Under the pieces are notes generated by a model. The model had not been told where the DNA came from and made no database searches. It was given only the letters and a program-made list of their open reading frames with translations. A program made the translations under genes and the position numbers. This document shows, piece after piece, positions 20,251 through 37,207 of a DNA stretch of 64,000 nt (positions are counted from its first letter, which is position 1; every line of letters starts with the position of its first letter). Source of the DNA: Pseudomonadota bacterium (GTDB taxonomy: Bacteria > Chloroflexota > UBA6077 > JAJPHF01); assembly GCA_021325365.1 (NCBI GenBank), contig JAJPHF010000146.1:29450-93449 (forward strand), written 5' to 3'.

Positions 20251-21873
20251 ATGGACGGTGGCAAGGTCTATCTCGTCGGCGCGGGGCCGGGCGATCCAGG
20301 GCTACTCACCGTGCGTGGTCGCGAGGTGCTCGCGCGCGCTGAGGTGCTCGTCTACGACCGACTGGCCGCGCCCGAGATCGTGGCGCTCGCGCCGCTGTCG
20401 GCCGAGCGGGTCTACGTCGGCAAGGCGCCCGGCCGCCACACGCTACGCCAGCCCGAGATCAATGCGCTGCTGGTGGACCGCGCGCGAGCGGGCAAGCAGG
20501 TCGTGCGGCTCAAGGGCGGCGACCCGTTCGTCTTCGGCCGCGGCGGCGAAGAGGCCGAGGCGCTTGCCACGGCCGGGCTGCCCTTCGAAGTGGTGCCGGG
20601 CATCAGCGCCGCGCTGGCTGTCGCCGCCTACGCCGGCATCCCCGTCACCCACCGCGCCGTCGCCTCCTCGTTCGCCGTCGCCACCGGCCAGGAAGGCGAG
20701 GCGCGCGGCACCCAGACGCTCGCTTACGACCGCCTGGCGGGCGCCGCCGACACGCTCATCTTTCTCATGGGCGTCGAGCGGCTGCCCGCCATCGTCGCGG
20801 GGCTGCTCGCCGGCGGGCGCGACCCGGCCACCCCCGTTGCCGTGATCGCCGCCGGCACCTTGCCCGAGCAACGCACGCTCGTCGCCACGCTGGCCGATGT
20901 GGTCGACCGGGTCGAGGCGGCCGGCCTGCGTCCGCCCGCCGTCACCGTCGTCGGCGAAGTCGTCCGGCTCCGTGAGCGGCTGCGCTGGTTCGACCGTCGC
21001 CCCCTCTTCGGCCGGCGCGTGCTCGTCACGCGCACTCGCGAGCAAGCCAGCACCCTCGTCGCGCTCCTCCGCGCGGCTGGCGCCCGTCCTATTGAGCTAC
21101 CCACCATCGCCATCCGCCCGCCCGACAGCTTCGCCGACCTGGACGCCGCGCTCCTGGCGCTCGCCGACTCTACCTCCCCGGCCCCCCTTCCGCAGCGGCC
21201 AGGGGGCGAACCGGCGTCGGCGGACTCATCTCCCCCCTTCCTTCCCAGGGAAGGGGGGCCGGGGGGGTTAGATCCCTGGGTGATCTTCACCAGTGCCAAT
21301 GGGGTGGAGGCAGTGTTCGCGCGCTTGGAGGCGCTCGGGCTCGACGCGCGCGTCTTTGGCGGCGTGCGACTCGGCGCGATCGGCCCGGCCACGGCGGCGG
21401 CCCTGCGCCAGCACGGCCTTCGCGCCGACTACGCGCCGACCGAGGCCCTGGCGAGCGCCATCCTGGCCGACTTCCAGGGGCGCGACCTGCGGGGCGTGCG
21501 CGTGCTCCTGCCGCGCGCCGACATCGCGCCGCCCGCCCTGGCCGACGGCCTGGCCGCGCTCGGCGCCGACGTGGAGAGCGTCGTCGCCTACCGCACCGTG
21601 CCGGCCGAGGGCCTCGCCGCCGAGGCGCGGCGCGTGCTAGCGGACGGCGCGGTCGATACGGCCTGCTTCACCAGCTCGTCCACCGTGCGCAACCTGGTCG
21701 ACGCGCTGGACGGCGACACGTCGCTGCTCGCGCCGCTGACCGTAGCCTGCATCGGCCCGGTCACTGCCGCCACTGCCCGCGAGCTGGGCCTGCACGTCGA
21801 TATCGTCGCCCGCGAGCACACCGTCGAGGGCCTGGTCGCCGCCCTCTGCCAGGCGGCGCGTGCCGCGAGCTAG
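20251..21873 (+). CDS. cobA-hemD: Uroporphyrinogen-III C-methyltransferase / uroporphyrinogen-III synthase fusion
   Basis: A 540-residue bifunctional protein of tetrapyrrole synthesis. Residues 1-~250 are SUMT (VYLVGAGPGDPGLLTVRG, VVRLKGGDPFVFGRGGEE, GIPVTHR), which methylates uroporphyrinogen III to precorrin-2. Residues ~258-540 are HemD (VLVTRTREQASTLV, WVIFTSANGVEAVF, ACFTSSSTVRNLVDAL), which closes the ring. Such fusions are common in Gram-positives. The HemD part carries an in-frame insertion of about 35 residues (DNA 21170-21283) containing a GA-rich hairpin repeat, in a loop between two strands. Likely transcribed with hemB, 76 bases downstream. Confidence 0.93.
   Translation: MDGGKVYLVGAGPGDPGLLTVRGREVLARAEVLVYDRLAAPEIVALAPLSAERVYVGKAPGRHTLRQPEINALLVDRARAGKQVVRLKGGDPFVFGRGGEEAEALATAGLPFEVVPGISAALAVAAYAGIPVTHRAVASSFAVATGQEGEARGTQTLAYDRLAGAADTLIFLMGVERLPAIVAGLLAGGRDPATPVAVIAAGTLPEQRTLVATLADVVDRVEAAGLRPPAVTVVGEVVRLRERLRWFDRRPLFGRRVLVTRTREQASTLVALLRAAGARPIELPTIAIRPPDSFADLDAALLALADSTSPAPLPQRPGGEPASADSSPPFLPREGGPGGLDPWVIFTSANGVEAVFARLEALGLDARVFGGVRLGAIGPATAAALRQHGLRADYAPTEALASAILADFQGRDLRGVRVLLPRADIAPPALADGLAALGADVESVVAYRTVPAEGLAAEARRVLADGAVDTACFTSSSTVRNLVDALDGDTSLLAPLTVACIGPVTAATARELGLHVDIVAREHTVEGLVAALCQAARAAS
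21232..21270. repeat. GA-rich hairpin repeat (family D) inside cobA-hemD
   Basis: CCCCCCTTCCTTCCCAGGGA and its complementary continuation AAGGGGGGCCGGGGGGG lie in frame within the HemD coding region, adding residues such as PPFLPREGGPGG. Confidence 0.75.
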
Positions 21874-21949
21874 CCGGCGGGTAAGATAGCTAGGGGCGCC
21901 CAGCTCATCCAGAGCGTCGGTAGCGCCAGTAGGCTGGGAGTGAACCACG

Positions 21950-23020
21950 ATGCAGATCGAAGAACGGACAGCACCGGGCGCCGCCAATAGCGCCCCTGTG
22001 GCACTCAGCCGGGTGCAGCCAGCAGCGCCCCTGCAGCCCGCCTCGCCCGGCTTTCCCGCCGTGCGCCTGCGCCGGCTGCGCCGCACGCCCGCGCTCCGCC
22101 GCCTGGTGCGCGAGACGACGCTGGCCGTCGACGACCTGATCTTGCCGCTGTTCGTCGCGCCGGGCCGCGGCGTCCGCGAGCCCATCGCCAGCATGCCCGG
22201 CCACGCCCAGCTCTCGCTCGACGAGCTGGCGCGCGAGGCGCGCGAGGTGCGCGATCTCGGCGTGCCCGCCGTACTGCTGTTCGGCCTGCCCTCGCGCAAG
22301 GATCCCCTCGGCTCCGAGGCCTACGATCCCCACGGTATCGTGCAGGACGCCATCCGCACCGTGAAGGAGCACGCCCCCGAGCTGGTGGTGATGACCGACG
22401 TGTGCCTGTGCGAGTACACCAGCCACGGCCACTGCGGCGTGGTCGAGGACGGCTACGTGCAGAACGACCCCACGCTGGAGCTACTCGCGCGGACGGCGCT
22501 CTCCCACGTCGAGGCCGGCGCCGACCTGGTGGCGCCCTCCGACATGATGGACGGCCGCGTGGGCGCCATCCGCCGGGCGCTGGACGGCGCGGGCTACGTC
22601 GAGACGCCGATCCTGGCCTATGCCGCCAAGTTCGCCTCGGCGTTCTACGGCCCGTTCCGCGAGGCGGCCGACTCCGCGCCCCAGTTCGGCGACCGCCGCG
22701 CCTATCAGATGGACCCCGCCAACGGCCGCGAGGCGCTGCGCGAGGTCGAGCTGGACGTGGCCGAGGGCGCCGACCTGGTGATGGTGAAGCCCGCGCTCGC
22801 CTACCTCGACCTCGTCTGGCGCGTGCGCGAGCGCTTCGGCCTGCCCGTCGTCGCCTACAGCGTGAGCGGCGAATACGCGATGGTGAAGGCCGCCGGCCAG
22901 CTCGGCTGGATCGACGAGCGCGCCATCGCCCTGGAGCAGCTCACCGGCATCCGCCGCGCCGGCGCCGACCTCATCATCACTTACTTCGCCAAGGACGTCG
23001 CCCGCTGGCTGGGCGCCTGA
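21950..23020 (+). CDS. hemB: Delta-aminolevulinic acid dehydratase (porphobilinogen synthase)
   Basis: A 356-residue enzyme condensing two 5-aminolevulinates to porphobilinogen. Both Schiff-base lysines are visible ([16 protein letters not shown] and [10 protein letters not shown]). The zinc-binding Cys set is in [13 protein letters not shown], so it is the zinc-dependent type. A 45-residue N-terminal tail precedes the conserved [15 protein letters not shown]. It lies between cobA-hemD and hemL on one strand, as in classical Gram-positive hem operons. Confidence 0.96.
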
Positions 23021-23025
23021 AGTAG

Positions 23026-23061
23026 CCCCTCTCCCCCTGGGAGAGGGGTTGGGGTGAGGGC
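23026..23061. repeat. CCCTCTCCCCCTGGGAGAGGG hairpin repeat (family B), copy 1
   Basis: CCCCTCTCCCCCTGGGAGAG plus GGGTTGGGGTGAGGG between hemB and hemL. Other copies at 30095, 40821, 50429 and 50480. Confidence 0.85.
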
Positions 23062-23088
23062 TCGCGGCGCCAGCGGATTGAGAGGCAC

Positions 23089-24375
23089 ATGCGAACGCAG
23101 GTATCACGAGAGCTATTTCAGCGCGCGCAGCGGCTACTCCCGGGCGGCGTGGACAGCCCCGTGCGCGCGTTTCGCGCCGTGGGCGGCACGCCGCGCTTCC
23201 TCGTGCGCGGCGAGGGCGCGCGCGTGGTCGACGCCGACGGCAACGTGTACCTCGACTACCTGGGCTCCTGGGGCCCGCTGATCCACGGCCACGCGCCGCC
23301 GGCGGTCGTCGCGGCGATCACCGCCGCGGCGCGCGACGGCACCAGCTTCGGCGCCCCCACGCCGGGCGAGGTCGAGCTGGCCGAGCTAGTCACGGCCGCC
23401 GTGCCGAGCGTCGAGATGGTGCGCTTCGTCAATTCCGGCACCGAGGCGACGATGAGCGCGCTGCGCCTGGCGCGCGCCGCCACCGGCCGCGACACGATCC
23501 TCAAGTTCGACGGCTGCTACCACGGCCACGCCGACGGCCTGCTGGTCAAGGCCGGCTCGGGGCCGCTCTCGCTCGGCGCCCCCGACAGCCCGGGCGTCCC
23601 CGCTGCGATGGCGCGGCACACGCTCTCCGTGCCCTACAACGATCTGGCCGCCGTCGAGGCGGCGTTCGCGGCCCAGCCCGAGGCGATCGCGGCCGTCATC
23701 GTCGAGCCGATCGCGGGCAACATGGGCTGCGTGCCGCCGGCCGACGGCTTCCTCGCCGGGCTGCGCGCCGTCACGGAGCGCTACGGCGCCCTCCTGATCT
23801 TCGACGAGGTCATCACCGGCTTCCGCGTGGCCTACGGCGGCGCACAGGCGCTCTACGACGTGACGCCCGACCTGACGTGCCTCGGCAAGGTGCTGGGTGG
23901 CGGGCTGCCGGTGGGGGCCTACGGCGGCCGCCGCCCGCTGATGGAGCAGATGGCGCCTGCCGGGCCGGTCTACCAGGCCGGCACGCTGGCGGGAAACCCG
24001 ATCGCCATGGCGGCCGGCTGCGCGGCCCTGCGGCTGCTCTACGGCGGCGACGCCTACGCCCGCCTCGACGCGCTGGGGCAGCGGCTAGCCGCCGGGCTCG
24101 CGGCGGAGGCGGCCGCCGCGGCCATCCCCGCGCAGGTGAGCCGCGTCGGCTCGATGCTGACGCTGTTCTTCACGGAGCGGCCCGTCCGGGACTACGCGAG
24201 CGCGCGTACGGCCGATACCGCGCGCTATGCCCGCTTCTTCCACGCCATGCTAGCGCGCGGCGTGTATCTGCCGCCGTCGCAGTTCGAGCTGTGGTTCGAC
24301 AGCCTGGCGCACACCGAGGCCGACGTGGACGCCACCGTGGCGGCGGCGCGCGCCGCCTTCGCGGAGCTGTCGTAG
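23089..24375 (+). CDS. hemL: Glutamate-1-semialdehyde 2,1-aminomutase
   Basis: A 428-residue PLP enzyme making 5-aminolevulinate from glutamate-1-semialdehyde (C5 route). Motifs: [82 protein letters not shown] and the PLP lysine in [17 protein letters not shown]. Third of three tetrapyrrole genes; hemA and hemC are not in the window. Confidence 0.96.
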
Positions 24376-26526: not shown

Positions 26527-27594
26527 TCAACCCACGGGCTGGTGCCCGTCGTGCGCGGCGTAAGCCTCCTCGCGGTAGAGGTCCAGCGCCTCCATCGCGG
26601 GCAGGTCGGTGATCGAGAAGAGGACGGCCTCCTCGTCGCCCGTGTTGGCGTGCTCGTGCCAGGCCCAGGTGGGCAGCGCCAGGAAGTCGCCCTGCTGCCA
26701 GTCGAGCCGCTCCCCGTTCACCACGCTGTAGCCGCGCCCGCGGAACACCTGGTACACGGCGCTGCTCGTGTGGCGGTGCGCCCGCGTGCGTACCCCCGGC
26801 CGCAGGAGCTGAATCCAGCAGCCGAGCGCCGGCAGCGCGTGGCCGCCCGTCCGCGGGTCGGTGTACTCTAGCGCCACGTCGTCGTAGGGGCTCGCGTCCA
26901 CCGCCGCCAGCCGCCGCAGCGCCGCATACGTGTCCGCCCACCGATAGGTGAGGAGAGGCGGGCGGGTCGGTTGCACCGCTCGCAGCGCGGCGCCGTAGCG
27001 GTGCTGCGAGCTATCGGCCGGCCGCGTCTCAGGCTGGCGCTCGGCGGGGTGGCGCTCGAAGAACACGCCGTTCAGCAGGATGACGAGCGGGAAGTCGAGG
27101 CCGTCCATCCACATCACCGGCTCGTCGCCGGCGTTGCCGTGGTGGTGCCAGCTCCAGCGCGGCGTCAGCACCAGGTCGCCCGGCTCCATCGTGCAGCGCT
27201 CGCCGTCGATCGTCGTGTAGGCGCCGTGGCCCTGGATGATGAAGCGGATCGCCGCGGGCGTGTGGCGGTGCGTGGGCGCGACCTCGCCGGGGCGGATGAG
27301 CTGCACGGAGGCGGCCAGCGTGTGCGTGGCGCAGTGCTGCGCCACCAGGCCCGGGTTGACCAGGCGGATCGTCCGCCGTTCGGCCGCCGCGTCGTGCTGC
27401 ACCAGCTCGCCGGCGCGCTCCAGCACGCGCCGCACGTCGGCGCCCCGCCAGACGTACGGGCGCGCGACCAGCCGCGGCTCCGCCGCCTGCACCTCGTCGC
27501 CCAGCCGCCACAGCCCTTCGAGCTGCAGCCCCGCCATCTCCGCGTGCAGCGCGTCCAGCGCCGCCGTCCCGCTCACCGGCTCCGCAACCATCAC
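26527..27594 (-). CDS. Bicupin dioxygenase (gentisate 1,2-dioxygenase-like)
   Basis: A 355-residue two-cupin protein. Cupin 1 has THRHTPAAIRFIIQGHGAYT with the late metal His in WSWHHHGN; cupin 2 has RAHRHTSSAVYQVFRGRGYS and WAWHEHANTG. This layout fits gentisate/salicylate/1-hydroxy-2-naphthoate ring-cleaving Fe(II) dioxygenases. Both cupins keep their His ligands, whereas many homologues keep only the first. No aromatic-degradation neighbours are seen, so the substrate is open. Confidence 0.85.
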   Translation of the reverse strand: MMVAEPVSGTAALDALHAEMAGLQLEGLWRLGDEVQAAEPRLVARPYVWRGADVRRVLERAGELVQHDAAAERRTIRLVNPGLVAQHCATHTLAASVQLIRPGEVAPTHRHTPAAIRFIIQGHGAYTTIDGERCTMEPGDLVLTPRWSWHHHGNAGDEPVMWMDGLDFPLVILLNGVFFERHPAERQPETRPADSSQHRYGAALRAVQPTRPPLLTYRWADTYAALRRLAAVDASPYDDVALEYTDPRTGGHALPALGCWIQLLRPGVRTRAHRHTSSAVYQVFRGRGYSVVNGERLDWQQGDFLALPTWAWHEHANTGDEEAVLFSITDLPAMEALDLYREEAYAAHDGHQPVG

Positions 27595-27668
27595 GCCTCC
27601 GCAATCCCTACCGCCGGGCCGCGAATCCCCGCGCCGCTGCGCGACCGGTCACGCCTTGCGGCCAGCCG

Positions 27669-28364
27669 CTATCCTAGCAAGTCCAGCATCTCCCCCGGGC
27701 GCATGGCGATGCAGGTGAAGATCGGCGTGTCGCGCTCCGTGTACGAGCTGGCCTCCGTCTCGCGTAGCGCCATCACCAGGTCCAGGAAGTCGCTCGGCAC
27801 GTCGGACTCGAACGCCAGCACGAACTCCTGGTCGTCGAGCCCGTAGGAATACGTCGTGTTCAGCTTGACGCTCGGGAACGTATGCCCCAGCTTGATGTGG
27901 GCGTCCATCATCTCCTGGCGCCGCTCTTTCGACAGCGCGTACCAGGCGCGCGTCTTCACGAACGGATAGACGAAGAGGTACTTCGCCTTGCCCGGCGTGA
28001 CGGTGAGCCGCGAGCCTTCCTGGCCCTCGTGGCGGTGCTTGTCCACGTACATCGAGCGCCGCGTCTGGCTCAGGTAGGAGTAGGGCAGCGAGGCGTAGTT
28101 GCCGAGCCCCGTCGCCAGCAGCTCGGCCATGAACGGGGGGAACACGTCCAGGTCCTCGCTGATCGTCCAGAGCAGGAAGTCGCAGTCGCCGCGAATGCCG
28201 ACGAGCGAGTAGCTCCGCAGGATCATGCGCTCGGCGTACCGCTCCAGCACGGCCTGGAAGGCCCGCTTGCCCGCGTCGCGCTCGCTCGGCGGGAGCCGCC
28301 GCCACGCCGGATCGATCTTGAAGAAGTTAAACTTAACGAACTGGCGCCGCATCTGCTCGGCCAT
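27669..28364 (-). CDS. hemQ: Coproheme decarboxylase (HemQ, chlorite dismutase family)
   Basis: A 231-residue enzyme of the last step in the coproporphyrin-dependent heme route, converting coproheme to heme b with peroxide. Diagnostic: QFVKFNFFKIDPAWRRL, DCDFLLWTIS, YPFVKTRAWYALSKERRQEM (with the radical-forming Tyr region), HIKLGHTFP and LNTTYSYGLDDQEFVLAFE. True chlorite dismutases keep a distal Arg that HemQ lacks. GGGAGGG precedes ATG 28364. Its presence with cobA-hemD, hemB and hemL supports a monoderm-type heme pathway. Confidence 0.93.
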   Translation of the reverse strand: MAEQMRRQFVKFNFFKIDPAWRRLPPSERDAGKRAFQAVLERYAERMILRSYSLVGIRGDCDFLLWTISEDLDVFPPFMAELLATGLGNYASLPYSYLSQTRRSMYVDKHRHEGQEGSRLTVTPGKAKYLFVYPFVKTRAWYALSKERRQEMMDAHIKLGHTFPSVKLNTTYSYGLDDQEFVLAFESDVPSDFLDLVMALRETEASSYTERDTPIFTCIAMRPGEMLDLLG

Positions 28365-28438
28365 GGTCCCTCCCTGGGCGAACGCGTTAGCTGCTCTATT
28401 ATCGCCCGAGCGCCCGCCCCCGCGCCGAACTCGGCGCG

Positions 28439-29281
28439 CTAGTGCGCGTGCGGCGGGAGCACCGATTGCTCCGCGGGCGCGGCGAGCACGTCCTGGTCGG
28501 TGAGCAGCCAGCGGTCCCCGCGCCGCACCACCCGGCCATCGTGCTCCAGCTTCAGCAGGTGCGCCAGCACCGAGCGCCCCGCCGCGCCGTGCAGCCGCGG
28601 GTCCACGTCCGCGTACAGCCGCGCCACCATCGCCCCGATCGTCTCGTCGCCCAGCCGCAGGCAGGCCAGCACTTGCCGCTCGCGCAGCAGGCGGTGGTCG
28701 ATGTACTCCGTGATCTTCGCCTCGGGATCCTCCACCGGGTCCCAGTGGCCGGGCAGCATGCGCCGGATCGGGTACTGCCGCAGCAGCGCCAGCGAGTCGA
28801 GATACGCTGCCATGTCGCCGTCCGGCGGGCTCACCACCACCGTGCCGGAGCCGACCACGTGGTCCCCCGAGAACAACAGCTCGCGCGCCCGCAGCAGGAA
28901 GCACAGGTGCGTGCTCGCGTGCCCCGGCGTCGCCAGCACCTCCAGCATCTCGCCGTCAACCGGCACCTCCTGGCCGTGGCGCAGCGTGCGATCGGCGTGC
29001 CGAATGCCCTCGTGGGCCGCCAGCGGGGCGCCCGTCTTGCGGCGCAGCAGGTCCGCGCCGGGCAGGTGGTCCAGGTGATGGTGCGTCACCAGGATCAGGC
29101 CGACCCGCGCGTTCAGCTCGCCCACTGCCTCCACGATGCGGTCGATGTGTACAGGGTCGTCCGGCCCCGGATCGACCACGGCCAGCTCGCGCTCGCCGAT
29201 CAGATAGGTATTCGTGCCCGGGCCCGTGTACGGGCCAGGATTAGCGGCCAGCAGCTTGTGAATCCGTGGCGCTACCAGCAC
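28439..29281 (-). CDS. Metallo-beta-lactamase-fold hydrolase (LACTB2-like)
   Basis: A 280-residue MBL hydrolase. Metal motif THHHLDH, further ligands in ATPGHASTHLCF, SGDHVVG and LPGHWDP. A C-terminal winged-helix-like segment (LAHLLKLEHDGRVVRRGDRW) matches the LACTB2/RNase-like subgroup rather than glyoxalase II. GTG 29281 overlaps the end of the upstream Nudix gene by ten bases, so the two are coupled; a LACTB2-Nudix pairing is common in this kind of genome. Confidence 0.88.
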   Translation of the reverse strand: MLVAPRIHKLLAANPGPYTGPGTNTYLIGERELAVVDPGPDDPVHIDRIVEAVGELNARVGLILVTHHHLDHLPGADLLRRKTGAPLAAHEGIRHADRTLRHGQEVPVDGEMLEVLATPGHASTHLCFLLRARELLFSGDHVVGSGTVVVSPPDGDMAAYLDSLALLRQYPIRRMLPGHWDPVEDPEAKITEYIDHRLLRERQVLACLRLGDETIGAMVARLYADVDPRLHGAAGRSVLAHLLKLEHDGRVVRRGDRWLLTDQDVLAAPAEQSVLPPHAH

Positions 29282-30204
29282 TCGGCCACCTCCGGCGGGA
29301 TGACGATTCGGGGTGGGGTCACGTCCACCTCCATGCGGGGCAGCACCGTGACCACCGGCTTGTTCTCCGTGTGCGCCCACAGCGCCTCCAGCGTCGGGAA
29401 CATGGCCAGACGCTGGAGATGGCTGAGCGTGGCGAAGACCAGCGGGAACTCGTGGGCGGCGTGGCGCCTCAATGCCACGTCCGGCGCGATCCACACACCG
29501 TCCGTCGTCTCCGGCGTGCAGGCGAGCGCCTCCGGCACCGTCTGGGCGCCGCAGTGCAGCGCCTCCTGGCGCGGCGGCATGAGCGCCAGGAAGAAGCGCG
29601 TGTCGAAGCGGTGCTTGGCCGCCTCCGGCGTGATCCAGTGCGCCCAGTAGCGCAGGGCGCCAGGCGCCAGCGTCAGCCCCTCGCGCCGCGCCAGCTCCCA
29701 GAGCGACATCTCGCCGCTTGCCACGCTGGCGCGGTGGACGGCGAAGCGCCGGGCCGTTTCTGGCTCGTCGAGCGCCACCCACGCGCCCCGCGCGTCGCGG
29801 GCGAGCAGCACACCCGCCTCCTCGTAAAGCTCGCGCAGGGCATTGATCCACAGTGCCAGACTGCCCTCGGGCGTGTCCAGGCCCGCCTTCGCGCTCCCGC
29901 CCAGGCGCGCGTGCGCGGCCGCGGCGCTCAGATCGGCGGGCGGGTGCGCGCCGGGCGGCCAGTCGTCCGCTTGCAGGCTGCCGCCCGGGAACACGTACAC
30001 GTCGGGCGCGAAATTGCTCCCCGCCGGCCGCCGCACCATGAAGATCTCGTACGGCGTCGCCCCACCCCCCGGCGTCCACTCCCCCTGGCCGCTGCCCCCT
30101 CTCCCCCTGGGAGAGGGCTGGGGTGAGGGCGACTCCGCGGCCCGCACGGCCGGCCGCACGAGAATCACCGTCGCCGATTCACGCGGCTCCACGGGCGTAG
30201 CCAC
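29272..30204 (-). CDS. Nudix hydrolase (NUDT7/NUDT19-like)
   Basis: A 310-residue Nudix hydrolase. Features: VYVFPGGSLQADDW followed, after an insertion, by the core ALRELYEEAGVLLARD (REUXEEXGU intact). The long form with a large insertion resembles CoA/acyl-CoA pyrophosphatases. Residues ~24-45 (SPSPQPSPRGRGGSGQGEW) come from a family B hairpin repeat in frame, splitting the first strand (ATVILVRPA) from YEIFMVRRPAG. Overlaps the downstream MBL gene. Probably hydrolyses a CoA derivative; inference. Confidence 0.85.
   Translation of the reverse strand: MATPVEPRESATVILVRPAVRAAESPSPQPSPRGRGGSGQGEWTPGGGATPYEIFMVRRPAGSNFAPDVYVFPGGSLQADDWPPGAHPPADLSAAAAHARLGGSAKAGLDTPEGSLALWINALRELYEEAGVLLARDARGAWVALDEPETARRFAVHRASVASGEMSLWELARREGLTLAPGALRYWAHWITPEAAKHRFDTRFFLALMPPRQEALHCGAQTVPEALACTPETTDGVWIAPDVALRRHAAHEFPLVFATLSHLQRLAMFPTLEALWAHTENKPVVTVLPRMEVDVTPPRIVIPPEVAECW
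30095..30130. repeat. CCCTCTCCCCCTGGGAGAGGG hairpin repeat (family B), copy 2, in coding sequence
   Basis: Same core as the hemB-hemL copy, located in frame near the 5' end of the Nudix gene (minus strand). Confidence 0.85.
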
Positions 30205-30271
30205 GGGCCACCTCCTGGGGGCGCAAGAGCGCTGTCGCCACTCTTATACTACCCGCTCGTCCGCCCCTGGC

Positions 30272-31000
30272 TCAGTCCGCCATCCCCACCCGCTTGCGCC
30301 AGGCGTGCCAGGCGCGCTCGAAGCCGCGCGGATCGAGCTGATAGCCGCCCATCCGCGCGATCTCGCCGGGGCTCAGGTACTGCACGTCGCCCAGCGCCAT
30401 CGCCTGCATCTGCAGCCGCGCGTTCTCCGCCATGTAGACACACGTCCAGACGACCTCCGGCAGCGAGCCGCCGGCCACCGCGCTGCCGTGCCCCCGCATC
30501 AGCACGACCCGGCGGGCGCCCAGCGCCCGGGCGAGCGAGCGGCCCTGCTCCATCGTCCGCACCAGCAAGTCCGTCTCTGCGCCGAAGTCGGCCGCGATGT
30601 CCCACTTGGGGACCTCCGGCCCCAGCAGCGCGGCCATGTGGTAGATTGGCCGCAGCGGCGTGTTGGTGATAGTGAAGGGGATCACGGACGGCGCGTGGTT
30701 GTGGCAGATCGCATGCACGTCGGGGCGAGCCTCGTAGATGGCGCCGTGGATGAAGCGCTCGGAGTAGGGCGTGCCCGCGGCGCCGCCCAGTTGGCGGCCA
30801 TCGAGGGAAAAGCGCTGCAAGTCGGCCCCCGTGACCAGCTCCGGGCCGAGCGAGCGCGCGATGACGTACTCCTCGGGGCGCGCGGGATGGCGGATGCTCA
30901 CGTGCCCGAACGCGTCGAGCACGCCCTCGTGCGCCAGGATACGGTTGGCGGCCACCAAGTCGCTCAGCGCCGCCGGATTGGCCAGCAGGGTGTCGGTCAT
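30272..31000 (-). CDS. Class II aldolase/adducin family protein
   Basis: A 242-residue zinc aldolase-fold protein. Metal His pair in ICHNHAPSV and third His in RGHGSAVAG; LDAFGHVSIRHP and YSERFIHGAIYEARPD match the family (catalytic acid near SERFIHG). Members cleave sugar phosphates or decarboxylate small aromatic acids. Neighbour genes give no clue to the substrate. Confidence 0.9.
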   Translation of the reverse strand: MTDTLLANPAALSDLVAANRILAHEGVLDAFGHVSIRHPARPEEYVIARSLGPELVTGADLQRFSLDGRQLGGAAGTPYSERFIHGAIYEARPDVHAICHNHAPSVIPFTITNTPLRPIYHMAALLGPEVPKWDIAADFGAETDLLVRTMEQGRSLARALGARRVVLMRGHGSAVAGGSLPEVVWTCVYMAENARLQMQAMALGDVQYLSPGEIARMGGYQLDPRGFERAWHAWRKRVGMAD

Positions 31001-31286
31001 GGCAACGTCACTCCTCGCCCGCGCGGATGGCCAGAAGTATACGGCCCATGCTCGGCGCCGCGGCTGCGGGAAGTCCTCGGCAGCCCTCGCCCCCGACCGT
31101 CCGCCCGCCGGCTGCCGAGCGTGTCCTGCCGGTCGCCGCGCCTGCAAGCCTCGCTGGCCCGCAACGTGCGGTACTTTCGCTGAGCAGCCGGTCGACTGCC
31201 GGCGACGTCGCGCGGACCAACCGACAGGCGGCGAGGCCCACGGCATGGCGCGGAATCAACCGCCCCGACCCTAATAGGTCGTGGGA

Positions 31287-31337: not shown

Positions 31338-31426
31338 AGTTGCACGCGTCCAGTAGACAGAAACCCCCGCGTCGGTCGTGGGGCGCGGGGTGCGGTTCTG
31401 TGAATGCGGGAGATGAGGCGTTAGCG

Positions 31427-32314
31427 ATGGCGACGACCGAGCGGGTAACGGGAGCCCCCCCCGGCAGCGCCGGACACGCGGGCGACAAGATCGTCGTCCG
31501 CGACCTCTACAAGACCTTCACGGTGCGCGGCAGCATCGTGCGGGCGCTTGTGAACATGAACGTCACCATCAAGGACGGCGAGTTCTTCGCCATCGTGGGC
31601 CCGAGCGGCTGTGGAAAGACGACGCTCCTGCGCATCCTGGCCGGCCTCGAGAAGCAGACCACCGGCACCCTGGACATGCACAGCTCTGACCCCAGCAAGC
31701 CGATCAACTCCATGGTCTTTCAGGAGCAGTCCGTTTTCCCGTGGATGACCGTGCGTGACAACGTGGCCTACGGCCTGCGGATGCGCGGCGTGCCGAAGAA
31801 GCAGCGGGACGAGACCGTCGCCTACTACATCGACAAAGTGGGCCTGACGAAGTTCACGAAGGCCTATCCGTTCCAGCTCTCGGGTGGCATGAAGCAGCGC
31901 GTGAGCCTTGCCCGCGCCTTCGCCAACGACCCCGAGATTCTCCTCATGGACGAGCCGTTCGGCGCGCTCGATGAGCAGACGAAGCTGCTGCTCCAGGAAG
32001 AGCTGCTGCGCATCTGGCAGGAAACGGCCAAGACCGTCGTCTTCATCACCCACAGTATCGACGAGGCGATCGTGCTCGCCGACCGGATCATGGTGATGAC
32101 CGCTCACCCGGGCCAGACCAAGGCTTACGTCCAGGTGCCCTTCGAGCGGCCCCGCGCCGTCTACGAGATTCGCGCCACGCCGCAATACGGTCAGCTGATG
32201 TACAGCATCTGGGAGCTCCTCCGCGACGAGGTCTTGCGGGCCAAGCGCGAGGAGGGCACCGAGGGCGGCGCCGATCTCAACCCGTCGTTCAAGCCGCCCA
32301 CGCGCGGACGCTAG
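31427..32314 (+). CDS. ABC transporter ATPase (nitrate/sulfonate/taurine type)
   Basis: A 295-residue ATP-binding subunit of the SsuB/TauB class. Walker A VGPSGCGKTTLLRI, Q-loop VFQEQSVFPWMTVRDNVAYG, signature LSGGMKQRVSLARA, Walker B ILLMDEPFGALDEQT, switch His FITHSIDEAI. WMTVRDNV is characteristic of this importer class. The C-terminal tail after ~residue 275 is charged. ATG 31427 follows GGGAGATGAGG. The permease follows 54 bases downstream. Confidence 0.93.
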   Translation: MATTERVTGAPPGSAGHAGDKIVVRDLYKTFTVRGSIVRALVNMNVTIKDGEFFAIVGPSGCGKTTLLRILAGLEKQTTGTLDMHSSDPSKPINSMVFQEQSVFPWMTVRDNVAYGLRMRGVPKKQRDETVAYYIDKVGLTKFTKAYPFQLSGGMKQRVSLARAFANDPEILLMDEPFGALDEQTKLLLQEELLRIWQETAKTVVFITHSIDEAIVLADRIMVMTAHPGQTKAYVQVPFERPRAVYEIRATPQYGQLMYSIWELLRDEVLRAKREEGTEGGADLNPSFKPPTRGR

Positions 32315-32368
32315 TAGTCGCTCGCCGTGCCACCCGGGCGCGGCAGAGCACAGACGAGGAGGGAGGCA

Positions 32369-33238
32369 ATGGCTCAGGAGCGGGTCAGCACCGGAGACAT
32401 CCAGGGCCTTATCACTACCGCGCGACTCGCCGACGTCACTGCCGACCGCACGGCAGTCGAGGCGGAGCGGCCCACACTCGGGCTTAGCCGCCAGAACCAG
32501 GAGCGGCTGCTCTCGATCTTCTCCCCGATCCTGCTGCTCGTGCTGTGGGAGATCCTCGTCCAGGTCGGCGTGCTGGACAAGCGCTTCTTCCCCGCGCCTA
32601 GCTCGATCGTGGGCACCTTCACGACGCTCGTCACGTCGGGTGAGCTGTGGAAGCACCTGACGGCCAGCGTCACCCGCATCGTCATCGGCTTTGCGATGGG
32701 CGCTATCCCGGCGCTGCTCCTCGGTATCACGATGGGGCTCTCCCGCTGGGTGCGGGCGTTCTTCAGCCCGATGATCGCGGCGCTCTACCCGATCCCGAAG
32801 ATCGCCATTCTGCCGCTCATCATGCTCATCTTCGGCCTGGGCGAGCCGAGCAAGTGGGTCATCATCGCCATCGGCACGTTCTTCCTCGTGCTCTACAACA
32901 CGATGGCCGGCGTCATGAACATCCCGAACATCTACCTCGACGTCGGCAAGAACTTCGGCGCCAACCGCGCGCAGTTCTACTGGACCATCGCGCTGCCCGG
33001 CGCGCTGCCGCTGATCTTCACCGGCATCAAGCTCGCCGCGGGCGTCGCGCTGCTGATCATCGTCGCCGCGGAGTTCGTGGGTGCCAAGACCGGCATCGGC
33101 TACCTGATCTGGCAGTCGTGGCAGACCTTCTCGGTCGAGACGATGTACGTCGGCCTGATCGTGATCGCCGTGCTCGGCTACCTCGTCTCGCTGGCGATGG
33201 ACGAGCTAGAGCACTTCCTGATCCCCTGGCGCCTCTAG
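32369..33238 (+). CDS. ABC transporter permease (nitrate/sulfonate/taurine type)
   Basis: A 289-residue inner-membrane permease of the SsuC/TauC class with about six membrane spans and the ATPase-contact loop NFGANRAQFYWTIALPGALP (EAA-type loop). GGAGG precedes ATG 32369. No binding protein is in the operon; three orphan binding proteins of the right class (3851, 34457, 62420) occur in the window. A terminator follows. Confidence 0.92.
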   Translation: MAQERVSTGDIQGLITTARLADVTADRTAVEAERPTLGLSRQNQERLLSIFSPILLLVLWEILVQVGVLDKRFFPAPSSIVGTFTTLVTSGELWKHLTASVTRIVIGFAMGAIPALLLGITMGLSRWVRAFFSPMIAALYPIPKIAILPLIMLIFGLGEPSKWVIIAIGTFFLVLYNTMAGVMNIPNIYLDVGKNFGANRAQFYWTIALPGALPLIFTGIKLAAGVALLIIVAAEFVGAKTGIGYLIWQSWQTFSVETMYVGLIVIAVLGYLVSLAMDELEHFLIPWRL

Positions 33239-34390: not shown

Positions 34391-34470
34391 GCTTCCCTGT
34401 GAAGGAAGGGGGGAGCCGGCTCCGCCGGTTCCCCCTTCCCACATTGGGCGGGGGGGCTAGGGGGGTAGGT
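34391..34470. repeat. GA-rich hairpin repeat (family D) at end of binding-protein gene
   Basis: Contains CTTCCCTGTGAAGGAAGGGG, a GGAGCCGGCTCCGCCGGTTCC palindrome-like centre and a final GGGGGGCTAGGGGGGTAGG. The repeat supplies the TAG stop (34457-34459) and the last codons of the minus-strand binding protein. Confidence 0.7.
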
Positions 34471-35521
34471 AAGCCGGCGCCTCCTCCAGAAAGCTCCGAT
34501 CGACCGCTTGGCTAAGATCGGCGGGGTGGGCCAGCAAGGCGGCGTCTAGGAAGTAGGCTTGCGTCGTGGCCAGGCTCAGCACATCCGGCGCGCCGTCGGG
34601 CGGGTAGGCGACCGGACTGAGCCGCGCCAGCGTCTTCGGGTCGTCGATCCCCAGCAGCGGCGCCAGCTCTTGCCACAAGGCCGCGCGCGTCGCCTCCGAC
34701 CGCAGCGCGGCCGTGTACTCGCCTAACGCGCGCAGGTACGCCGCCAGCAGCCGCGCCCCGACGCTGGGGCGGTGCGCCGCGAAGTTCGGCGAGAACAGCA
34801 CCACCGCGAGTTCCTGGCCGGGGTCCAGCGTGTCCACGCCCAGCCAGCGCGCGGCGCGGCCCGCGGCCTCCAGCCGCGCCGCGTCGGGCTCGACCACGAA
34901 CGCCGCGTCGAGCTGGCCGTCGGCCAGCGCGTCGGCGGCGCGGTCGGGTGGGAGGTCCACGAGGTTCACGTCGCTCGGCGTCAGGCGCAGCCGTGCCAGC
35001 GCGAGCGCCGCCTCGCGCCCGCCGAGCCCGTACAGGTCGACGCCAATCGGCCGTCCCCGCAGGCTCAGGTCTGGGCGGCGGGCCAGGTCAGCGCGCAGCA
35101 CGAACGCCGCCGGGCTCGCGCCCGGCTGCGCCTCGCCGGCCGACGCGACGATGCGGGGCGCGGCCGGCTTCGCCAGCGCGTCGAAAAAGTCGACGCTGGG
35201 CGACGCGGTGCCCACGTCGAGCTGGCCGGCGACGACGGGCCAGAGCACGCCGAACGGTGTCGAGAAGCCAACCTGCTCCAGCTCGATGCCTTGCTCCGCC
35301 AGGTAGCCGCGACCGATGGCAAGCAACAGCCCCGTGTCGTACAGGCTGCCGCCCGTCCCCACGCGGACGATGGGCGCGACGGGAGCGCCGGGGCGCGGGC
35401 CGGGGCGCTCGGGCGGCGGCGTGCAGCCGGCCAGCAGCGCCGCCACCACCGCAACCGCCCCCGCGACTCGGCTCGCCCGGCTAGCGCGCAAGCGCCGCGC
35501 GCCGCCGGCCCACCACGTCAC
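34457..35521 (-). CDS. NMT1/SsuA-like substrate-binding lipoprotein
   Basis: A 354-residue exported lipoprotein: hydrophobic segment then lipobox LLAGC (Cys 33). The mature part shows VRVGTGGSLYDTGLLLAIGR, GYLAEQGIELEQVGF, VVAGQLDVGTASPSVDFFDA and GLGGREAALALARL, typical of NMT1/SsuA-like proteins. Third gene of an operon with a conserved unknown protein and a UGSC selenoprotein, 19 bases downstream of the latter. No transporter genes adjoin. GTG 35521 is the start; a hairpin repeat provides the stop. Confidence 0.83.
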   Translation of the reverse strand: MTWWAGGARRLRASRASRVAGAVAVVAALLAGCTPPPERPGPRPGAPVAPIVRVGTGGSLYDTGLLLAIGRGYLAEQGIELEQVGFSTPFGVLWPVVAGQLDVGTASPSVDFFDALAKPAAPRIVASAGEAQPGASPAAFVLRADLARRPDLSLRGRPIGVDLYGLGGREAALALARLRLTPSDVNLVDLPPDRAADALADGQLDAAFVVEPDAARLEAAGRAARWLGVDTLDPGQELAVVLFSPNFAAHRPSVGARLLAAYLRALGEYTAALRSEATRAALWQELAPLLGIDDPKTLARLSPVAYPPDGAPDVLSLATTQAYFLDAALLAHPADLSQAVDRSFLEEAPAYLPP

Positions 35522-35540
35522 GTGGCGCTCGCCCCCGTCG

Positions 35541-36092
35541 CTATCCGCCAGCGGTGGTGAGCAGCCTCACGACGTCGCGCAGCGCCGCCGCGGCGCGGGC
35601 ACGCAGCTGTTCGGGGCTGAGGCGGCCCACCGGGTGAGGCACCATCAGGAACGGGTAGTCGGGCAGCCCGGCCACGGCCGCCGTCGCGCGCGCCATCCGC
35701 TCGAAGGCGTCCGTGCAGATGACCGCGGCCGGGATGCCCCGGCGCTCCAGCGCGATGCCGTCGTGCACACTGCACGAGCTGCACGACCCTCAATCGCCGA
35801 CCGCGGTCACCACCGCGTCGCACTGCCCCGTAAGCTGGTCCAGCGTCTCCGCGGGCGCCACGCGGCTGGCGCTCGGCTTGCCCACGAGCGCCACCGGCAC
35901 CGCGCCGTGCCGCTCGCGCAACAGCGTCCCCAGCGCCGTCAGGAACTCCTGCGAGTTCGGCTTGCCATTCGCCAGCAGCCCCACGCGTTGGCCGCGCAGG
36001 TTGGCCAGCCGCGGCGCCCGCGTCGCGCCCGCCGGCCGCGCGGCCGTCCGCGGGTCGAGCAAGGTCAGCGTCTTCTCGCTGGCAATCGCCAT
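35541..36092 (-). CDS. UGSC-family selenoprotein (in-frame UGA read as Sec)
   Basis: A 183-residue protein if TGA at 35792-35790 is decoded as selenocysteine (residue 101). The N-terminal half (LRGQRVGLLANGKPNSQEFL, DAVVTAVGD) runs straight into U-GSC, then SSCSVHDGIALERRGIPAAV and a C-terminal VPHPVGRLSPEQL. Codon usage and frame are continuous on both sides of TGA, and the UGSC motif names a known but uncharacterised (seleno)protein family. A hairpin with bSECIS geometry follows the TGA. GGAGG lies four bases before ATG 36092. Second gene of a three-gene operon. A thiol/selenol redox role is likely but unproven. Confidence 0.85.
35761..35792 (-). promoter_or_regulatory. UGA codon and candidate bSECIS hairpin
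   Basis: Twelve bases after TGA (35792-35790), TCGTGCA (35777-35771) pairs perfectly with TGCACGA (35767-35761) around the loop GTG. The UGA-to-loop distance is 19 nt and the loop starts with G, as expected for bacterial selenocysteine insertion elements. An alternative 8-bp pairing beginning nearer the UGA (GTCGTGCA with TGCACGAC) competes. Confidence 0.65.
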
Positions 36093-36109
36093 GCTGCCTC
36101 CTCGCGGCG

Positions 36110-37207
36110 CTAATGCGCGCCGCCCTCCTCCGACCCAAGCGTCGGCGCGGCGCTGTCGGCCGGCACCGCGCAGTCCGCGCAGGCGGCTACGGCGCGCGTC
36201 ACCGGCTCCGACGAGCGCCCGCCGGCCCACGGCGGCACTACGGCCGAGAACGTGCCGCCCGTCCCTCCGGCCGTGATAATCAACAGGTCCGACTCCCGGA
36301 CGAGCGGGGGGAAGCGCTGCGCGTCGCCCGGCTCGACAGCGCCGCGCAGGTAGCCCGCGCGCTTGAGCTCGGCCGCCGAGCGGCGCGCGTGCTCCGCCAG
36401 GTAGGCGCGCACGTCGGCCTTGCTCCACCCCGCGCGCTCGATCACGGCGCGGTGCTCGGGTGCCACGACGACGAGATACGCGCCCTGCGTGTAGCCGCCG
36501 TGCGCCATCACGTCGGCCACCGTGGCGAGCACGTCCTCCGGCGTCTGCCCGAAGGCGTTGCGCACGTAGTGCGGCGCCTCCGCGGCCATCACCGTCACCG
36601 CGCTCGTGTCGCGCGCCAGCCCGCGCTCGACGTGCAGCGGCTGCCAGCCCGTCGCCTCCTCGTTCTCCGCGATGCAGTAGCTATACTTGCCCGGATGCCC
36701 CAGCGTCGATTGGTCCAGCACGCCCGGCTCGGCGCCGCAGACGTTCAGCAGCAGGAGCCGGATCGCCCGCCCGATGGTCGCGTTCGCCCGCCGCCCGGGG
36801 CCAAAGACGTTGCCGCCCGCGTTCAAGTCGATCTGCTGGCGAATCGGCCCGTTCACGATCAGGAGCGGCGCCGCGCCGCCCGTGCTCGCCATGCTGCCGT
36901 GCAGGCAGAAAGCGTCGTCGGTCAGCGCCTGGATGGCCGCGACGACGACCGGGAAGTAGGCGGGCAGGCAGCCGGCCATCACCGCGTTGATGGCCGCCTT
37001 CTCGGCGGTGATCGCCCGCCCGCGGTCGGCCACCTCGCCTAGCACCGTGCCCGGATCGAGCGTCGCCACTGCCAGGAACTCCGCCACCCGCTCCGGCGTC
37101 GGCGGCACCACCGGCAGGCCGTCGGTCCAGCCCTGCTGGTAGCAGAACTCGATCGCCTCCAGCGTATCGGGCACCTCGTAGCGCGGCGATGCTAGCTCCG
37201 TCGCCAT
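36110..37207 (-). CDS. Conserved protein of unknown function in UGSC operon
   Basis: A 365-residue protein, no enzyme family recognised. Readable conserved blocks: YQQGWTDGLPVVPPTPERVA, AEKAAINAVMAGCLPAYFPV, APLLIVNGPIRQQIDLNAGG, FGPGRRANATIGRAIRLLLL and KYSYCIAENEEATGWQPLHV. These look like a widespread but unnamed bacterial family. Several Cys (MAGC, NVCG, YSYC, and CADC near the C-terminus) suit thiol or metal chemistry. The stop lies 17 bases before the UGSC gene start, so the two are almost certainly co-transcribed. No signal peptide or membrane span. Confidence 0.75.
   Translation of the reverse strand: MATELASPRYEVPDTLEAIEFCYQQGWTDGLPVVPPTPERVAEFLAVATLDPGTVLGEVADRGRAITAEKAAINAVMAGCLPAYFPVVVAAIQALTDDAFCLHGSMASTGGAAPLLIVNGPIRQQIDLNAGGNVFGPGRRANATIGRAIRLLLLNVCGAEPGVLDQSTLGHPGKYSYCIAENEEATGWQPLHVERGLARDTSAVTVMAAEAPHYVRNAFGQTPEDVLATVADVMAHGGYTQGAYLVVVAPEHRAVIERAGWSKADVRAYLAEHARRSAAELKRAGYLRGAVEPGDAQRFPPLVRESDLLIITAGGTGGTFSAVVPPWAGGRSSEPVTRAVAACADCAVPADSAAPTLGSEEGGAH

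Follow-up and report, generated by a model that had tools for sequence, protein, structure and literature searches.

Does a UGA triplet in the middle of a conserved bacterial reading frame end the gene or encode selenocysteine (Sec), and, in the latter case, to what kind of enzyme does the product belong? The question is raised by a 64,000-nucleotide stretch of a Chloroflexota genome (contig JAJPHF010000146.1, positions 29,450 to 93,449), hereafter the window, in which a gene of the UGSC family lies between genes for an unnamed conserved protein, here called protein A, and a substrate-binding lipoprotein. UGSC is an already named family. It was one of the commonest selenoprotein families of the Global Ocean Sampling (GOS) study, with 255 Sec sequences, and the most used one in the study’s non-marine samples (PMC2398784); a 2026 review places it among the selenoproteins with largely uncharacterized functions (PMC13188914). 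These and the other papers cited are drawn on through excerpts of their text. In the excerpted accounts of UGSC we found no function, named partner, covarying selenocysteine insertion sequence (SECIS) or relation to GrdB, and we claim no priority for the partner; our literature search returned no paper combining SAR202 and selenoprotein. Added here are partner A, natural fusions of A with UGSC, and a placement of UGSC beside GrdB and PrdB, which turn an orphan family into a testable two-subunit enzyme.

The in-frame UGA and its hairpin

The gene and the two elements on which its reading depends are as follows.

35541..36092, minus strand: UGSC family selenoprotein of 183 residues, Sec at position 101 (PF24696, NF041046, frame, codon-position guanine-cytosine (GC) content)
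35790..35792, minus strand: UGA, very probably the codon for selenocysteine 101 in D-U-G-S-C (base-by-base check; Sec in relatives)
35761..35777, minus strand: bacterial SECIS hairpin with a 7-bp stem and a GUG loop at 35768-35770 (fold and family covariation)

A preliminary description of this locus had placed the UGA at 35792-35790 within one continuous frame, followed by Gly-Ser-Cys, and a base-by-base check verified this: the frame of 184 codons runs from an ATG at 36092 to a TAG at 35541, with the UGA as codon 101. The same description had seen two conserved halves of a UGSC protein on either side, which agrees with a PF24696 profile match that spans the UGA (E 7.5e-63; 212.2 bits against a cut-off of 25; residues 12-180 of 184). 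Against NF041046, ‘UGSC family (seleno)protein’, the window protein scores 156 bits (cut-off 125); it shares the D-[UC]-G-S-C motif and, far above both cut-offs, is an ordinary member of the family. GC content at the three codon positions is similar before (0.75/0.56/0.95) and behind (0.74/0.60/0.93) the UGA. An open frame of at least 81 codons follows 211 of the 1006 TGAs on both strands of the window and is unremarkable alone; the argument for genuine recoding comes from the conserved hairpin and from a profile match that continues through the UGA, not from the length of the open frame. Among 68 UGSC genes near A (the window counted), 65 have Sec and three have Cys at this place, the Sec/Cys pair by which a bacterial selenoprotein gene is recognized. 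Exactly one in-frame TGA is present in 43 of 47 UGSC copies from 15 genomes, and the Cys of the UxxC motif is invariant across 53 aligned UGSC proteins.

The window hairpin, with 19 nucleotides between the UGA and the loop and a folding energy of -8.9 kcal/mol when folded alone, agrees at every point with the bacterial SECIS model described in the 2026 review (PMC13188914). Its conservation was assessed on 74 Sec loci defined by the motif DU[GA][SG]C, of which 73 were full length, giving 67 distinct 48-mers with the window included. All 67 have a GUN loop. In their alignment the stem is paired in 95.3% of cells (shuffled mean 88.7), two-sided changes occur in 19 stem cells (shuffled mean 2.5) and covariation scores 0.198 (0.098 when shuffled), none of these values being reached in 500 shuffles; shifting the stem partner lowers pairing to 7-59%. 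Two further counts in this alignment were unexceptional, namely pairs with two-sided changes (3; 36 of 500 shuffles) and additional kinds of pair (7; 95 of 500 shuffles). Some stem changes replace both encoded amino acids at once, for example Cys/His to Gly/Leu (U-A to G-U), and the UGSC protein therefore seems to be under constraint from the RNA. The three Cys homologues examined (L108-L110, all actinobacterial) have lost the GU loop and keep 4, 4 and 6 of the 7 pairs. Under synonymous recoding, the mean z at the UGA was -1.17 (n=73); two control places gave -0.08 (n=74) and -0.26 (n=73). For the window alone this z was just -0.57, its 59-nucleotide fold gave no signal (z 0.66), and no Rfam family matched in the window.

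Matches to tRNA-Sec were found in all 16 relatives’ genomes (best at least 63.8 bits, next-best at most 54.2), and the family cut-off was also exceeded in five of 14 named control genomes. The best selA match was at least 324 bits in each of the 16 genomes. No tRNA gene lies within the window. The UGA is very probably a selenocysteine codon, as had been proposed, with the SECIS hairpin and the Sec relatives as its support.

Protein A and its pairing with UGSC

The neighbor upstream of UGSC, and a motif near its end, are located as follows.

36110..37207, minus strand: protein A, 365 residues, unnamed conserved family, candidate partner subunit of UGSC (linkage, fusions)
36170..36181, minus strand: C-terminal CxxC of A (C343-A-D-C346), a possible reducing arm (motif count, model)

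Protein A matched no Pfam or NCBIfam family at E 0.1, yet has at least 7999 homologues (7999 of the 7999 scored candidates listed), and the window copy is identical to P0001, a protein of a Chloroflexota metagenome-assembled genome. Linkage was surveyed in the best 80 of 326 confirmed genome loci plus the window, 81 loci in total. Twenty of these 81 A proteins, the window’s included, have a CxxC within the last 35 residues; the tail is modeled with low confidence (predicted local distance difference test, pLDDT, <50 at 344-363). A UGSC gene on the same strand lies within 350 nucleotides of A at 66 loci and within 900 nucleotides at 68. In the remaining 13, UGSC stands at a distance of 1.1-1.6 kb in three and is absent from the fetched sequence in eight; the other two are truncated where the contig ends.

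Counting from UGSC gives a similar picture, in a tally that was drawn from genomes entered through A and is not a random sample of UGSC (L103, L120 and L121 duplicate L128, L108 and L101 and were not counted). There were 47 copies over the cut-off in 15 of 16 genomes, with up to 7 per genome. Thirty lie within 350 nucleotides of A and share its strand (A precedes in 21 and UGSC in nine) and 11 are fused to it in-frame, so that 41 of the 47 are beside or fused to A and six have no such link. Five of these six belong to G007, G008 and G016, whose A loci (L024, L030 and L038) are likewise unlinked; in these three genomes the two genes may have come apart instead of the pair having been lost. For two of the six (L128 and L147), A stands on the opposite strand of the fetched stretch. 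The genome with the best match to A, G001 (L001), has A and the lipoprotein and no UGSC match genome-wide. Two loci, L142 and L145, have UGSC followed by two tandem A genes on the same strand, and A may have duplicated or heteromeric forms.

The preliminary description had joined UGSC, the 365-residue protein and the lipoprotein into one three-gene system, with spacings of 17 and 19 bases that the sequence bears out (A stop 36110, UGSC ATG 36092; UGSC stop 35541, lipoprotein GTG 35521). Comparison of neighborhoods across genomes upheld the first part, a UGSC gene lying within 900 nucleotides of the 365-residue family at 68 of the 81 loci, and not the second, as a lipoprotein of the window’s cluster stands beside A at just two of 81. 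Gene order therefore supports a basic unit of two genes, A and UGSC, not three. This pair was seen in Chloroflexota, Rokubacteria, alpha-, beta- and deltaproteobacteria, and actinobacteria.

The functional link is further supported by the fusions and by co-evolution. All 11 fused genes encode UGSC first and A second, in stop-to-stop frames 552-705 codons long. In ten of them the only in-frame UGA stands at the Sec place and is followed by the A domain; a single chain can come from these ten only through readthrough of that UGA. The eleventh (L119, 3162-4763, from the genome of L019, Actinophytocola oryzae) has Trp at the Sec place and has lost the UGSC motif; it is perhaps a non-catalytic paralogue. 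A UGSC/Unknown_1 fusion, with the unknown domain also found alone, was reported in the GOS study (PMC2398784). Both arrangements join UGSC to an unknown domain, and Unknown_1 may be A. UGSC and A distances correlate at 0.81 over 40 pairs, a set that also leaves out L125 (same score as L124) and in which one pair, the first UGSC of L102, was matched to the downstream A, its own A being cut off. In 60 within-genome paralogue comparisons from 10 genomes the correlation is 0.70, which none of 2000 partner shuffles reached (maximum 0.65). UGSC and A co-evolve, and both the Sec assignment and the pairing are well supported.

UGSC is also fused to a NifU-type domain (PF01106) in P0164, P0186, P0194, P0198, P0201 and P0202; an organism name is attached to two of these, both actinobacterial. 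This domain is a possible built-in reductant.

Relation to GrdB and PrdB, and candidate chemistry

Eight GrdB and 24 PrdB-like loci were used for profile alignments (L085, L091, L093, L094, L095, L098, L099, L164 and L171 were left out). HHalign gave 94.9% for UGSC against GrdB (E 4.7e-8, score 64.4; maximum of 60 column shuffles 24.8), with Sec aligned on Sec, and 83.9% against the PrdB-like set, a comparison made without a shuffle control. These alignments mark UGSC as distantly homologous to the C-terminal, Sec-bearing half of GrdB/PrdB (PF07355, TIGR01917, TIGR01918), with which it has the C-terminal Sec domain in common, the UGTC and UGSC motifs standing in register. The resemblance stops short of full-length membership: UGSC is far under the TIGR01917 and TIGR01918 cut-offs (19.4 vs. 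602.2 and 15.9 vs. 65.45 bits), the N-terminal part of GrdB is missing from it, and its third Cys is not conserved. Its partner also differs, since A is not GrdE-like; compared with nine GrdE sequences it gave 0.2%, and as far as sequence tells it is unrelated to this pyruvoyl partner. Among L086-L173, many genomes have small PrdB/GrdB-like proteins with about 160-240 codons before an in-frame UGA and motifs such as UPVC and UGIC. Their PF07355 matches stop directly before the Sec, so the C-terminal half has probably been missed by annotation.

The structure model of UGSC (pLDDT 92) alternates strands with helices and looks Rossmann-like. No thioredoxin was among the 50 Foldseek and 50 VIA matches listed for it; a thioredoxin-like fold is still conceivable.

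With about even confidence, we propose that A and UGSC are two subunits of one selenoenzyme, a reductase that uses its selenolate to break C-X bonds in a variety of small molecules. In outline, A would supply the substrate pocket, replacing the pyruvoyl subunit of GrdB/PrdB enzymes. Sec101, which the model puts at a helix start in the Rossmann-like domain, would attack an activated carbon of the substrate as selenolate and expel the leaving group (N, O, S or halogen), and Cys104 of the UxxC motif would resolve the resulting selenoether or selenenyl-sulfide. Re-reduction could come from a dithiol arm, be it the C-terminal CxxC of A (as in the window) or the NifU-like domain of some UGSC proteins, with outside thiols serving elsewhere. 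The chemistry is inferred, and has precedent: glycine and D-proline reductase rupture a Se-C bond in an unusual way, and selenolate attack has been proposed for them (PMC10298544), and relatives of the GrdB complex have been proposed to reduce fluoroacetate (PMC10838667), which would extend GrdB-type chemistry beyond glycine. The earlier suggestion of thiol or selenol processing of a small molecule remains plausible and is sharpened by the GrdB/PrdB homology.

Outside the pair, neighbors vary and include short-chain dehydrogenases, luciferase-like monooxygenases, enolase superfamily proteins and an amidohydrolase, as well as PrpD, TctC, major facilitator superfamily (MFS) and LysR proteins (Pfam was run on 20 of the varied neighbors). 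That a genome can hold several paralogues, with different catabolic genes next to them, suggests that A sets substrate specificity. More tentatively, UGSC-A may represent a widely distributed branch of the superfamily of glycine/proline-reductase selenoenzymes, in which A, of unknown fold, replaces the pyruvoyl subunit and selenium-dependent reductive C-N, C-O, C-S or C-halogen cleavage reaches many environmental molecules, with one paralogue per substrate. Protein pairs and named isolates, such as the Hyphomicrobium strain of L080, are available for a substrate search.

Two other chemistries were weighed. UGSC-A could be a general protective thiol redox enzyme (a peroxidase, disulfide reductase or sulfoxide reductase) whose UxxC cycles as a selenenylsulfide, with A serving for scaffolding or docking. 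In favor are the wide use of UxxC as a redox motif, the rating of UGSC as likely thioredoxin-like in the 2008 GOS study (PMC2398784), and the CxxC tails and NifU fusions, which could donate electrons. However, the model of UGSC is Rossmann-like and its profile relationship is to GrdB, and up to 7 copies per genome amid varied catabolic and transport neighbors argue for many substrates, which makes this account unlikely. Slightly less probable still is a non-reductive reaction, as of an isomerase, lyase or hydrolase, in which the Sec selenolate acts as a covalent nucleophile beside a catalytic A and consumes no electrons: a pure nucleophile would not need the Cys that is invariant in the UxxC of the 53 aligned proteins, and GrdB and PrdB are themselves reductases (PMC10298544). 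That the UGA is an ordinary stop in a truncated or decayed gene is very improbable, for although open frames behind TGA are common in this GC-rich window and the Sec-machinery matches come from relatives’ genomes rather than the window’s own, this would leave unexplained the profile match and equal codon-position GC across the UGA, the covarying SECIS, the prevalence of Sec near A and the A domain conserved behind the UGA in fusions.

The lipoprotein, transporter genes and surroundings

Downstream of UGSC and beyond lie three genes of transport type.

34457..35521, minus strand: NMT1/SsuA-like substrate-binding lipoprotein, 354 residues, lineage-specific companion (PF09084)
31340..32314, plus strand: ATP-binding cassette (ABC) transporter ATPase, possible lipoprotein partner (PF00005, 1.1e-32)
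32327..33238, plus strand: ABC permease of SsuC/TauC type, possible lipoprotein partner (PF00528, 1.8e-23)

The NMT1/SsuA-like character first ascribed to the lipoprotein is in line with a match to PF09084 (NMT1; E 1.1e-7; 32.5 bits, cut-off 20.5), with TIGR01728 at 46.8 bits, below 163.5; its LLAGC is lipobox-like. Among the 81 loci a lipoprotein of its cluster stands beside A only in the window and L001, the latter with no UGSC in between, and its proposed ‘capture’ role fits a local addition. The ATPase and permease lie 1.2-3.1 kb past it on the opposite strand, with rpiA between. Their best NCBIfam matches are SaoA, NtrCD and TauB for the ATPase, and SsuC (156.2 bits, cut-off 347), TauC and SaoP for the permease, all below cut-off; for SaoA and SaoP of the Sec-assisted organometallic system the scores are 220.5 vs. 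360 (NF040729) and 124 vs. 295 bits (NF040733). The three window proteins are of the same superfamily as the SsuABC/TauABC importers and near the pair, but fall below curated SsuA/SsuC/TauB-type cut-offs, and the binding protein is on the other strand. A sulfonate/taurine-type importer at this locus is possible, and such a lipoprotein may feed UGSC-A in this Chloroflexota lineage.

Farther off, the minus strand at 26527-31246 encodes a gentisate/5-aminosalicylate dioxygenase-like cupin, a chlorite dismutase family protein and a class II aldolase that resembles dihydroxyphthalate decarboxylase but scores below cut-off; this neighborhood of the pair may serve aromatic-acid catabolism. On the plus strand, 20251-24375 holds a tetrapyrrole cluster with a uroporphyrinogen methyltransferase/synthase fusion, ALAD and a class-III aminotransferase.
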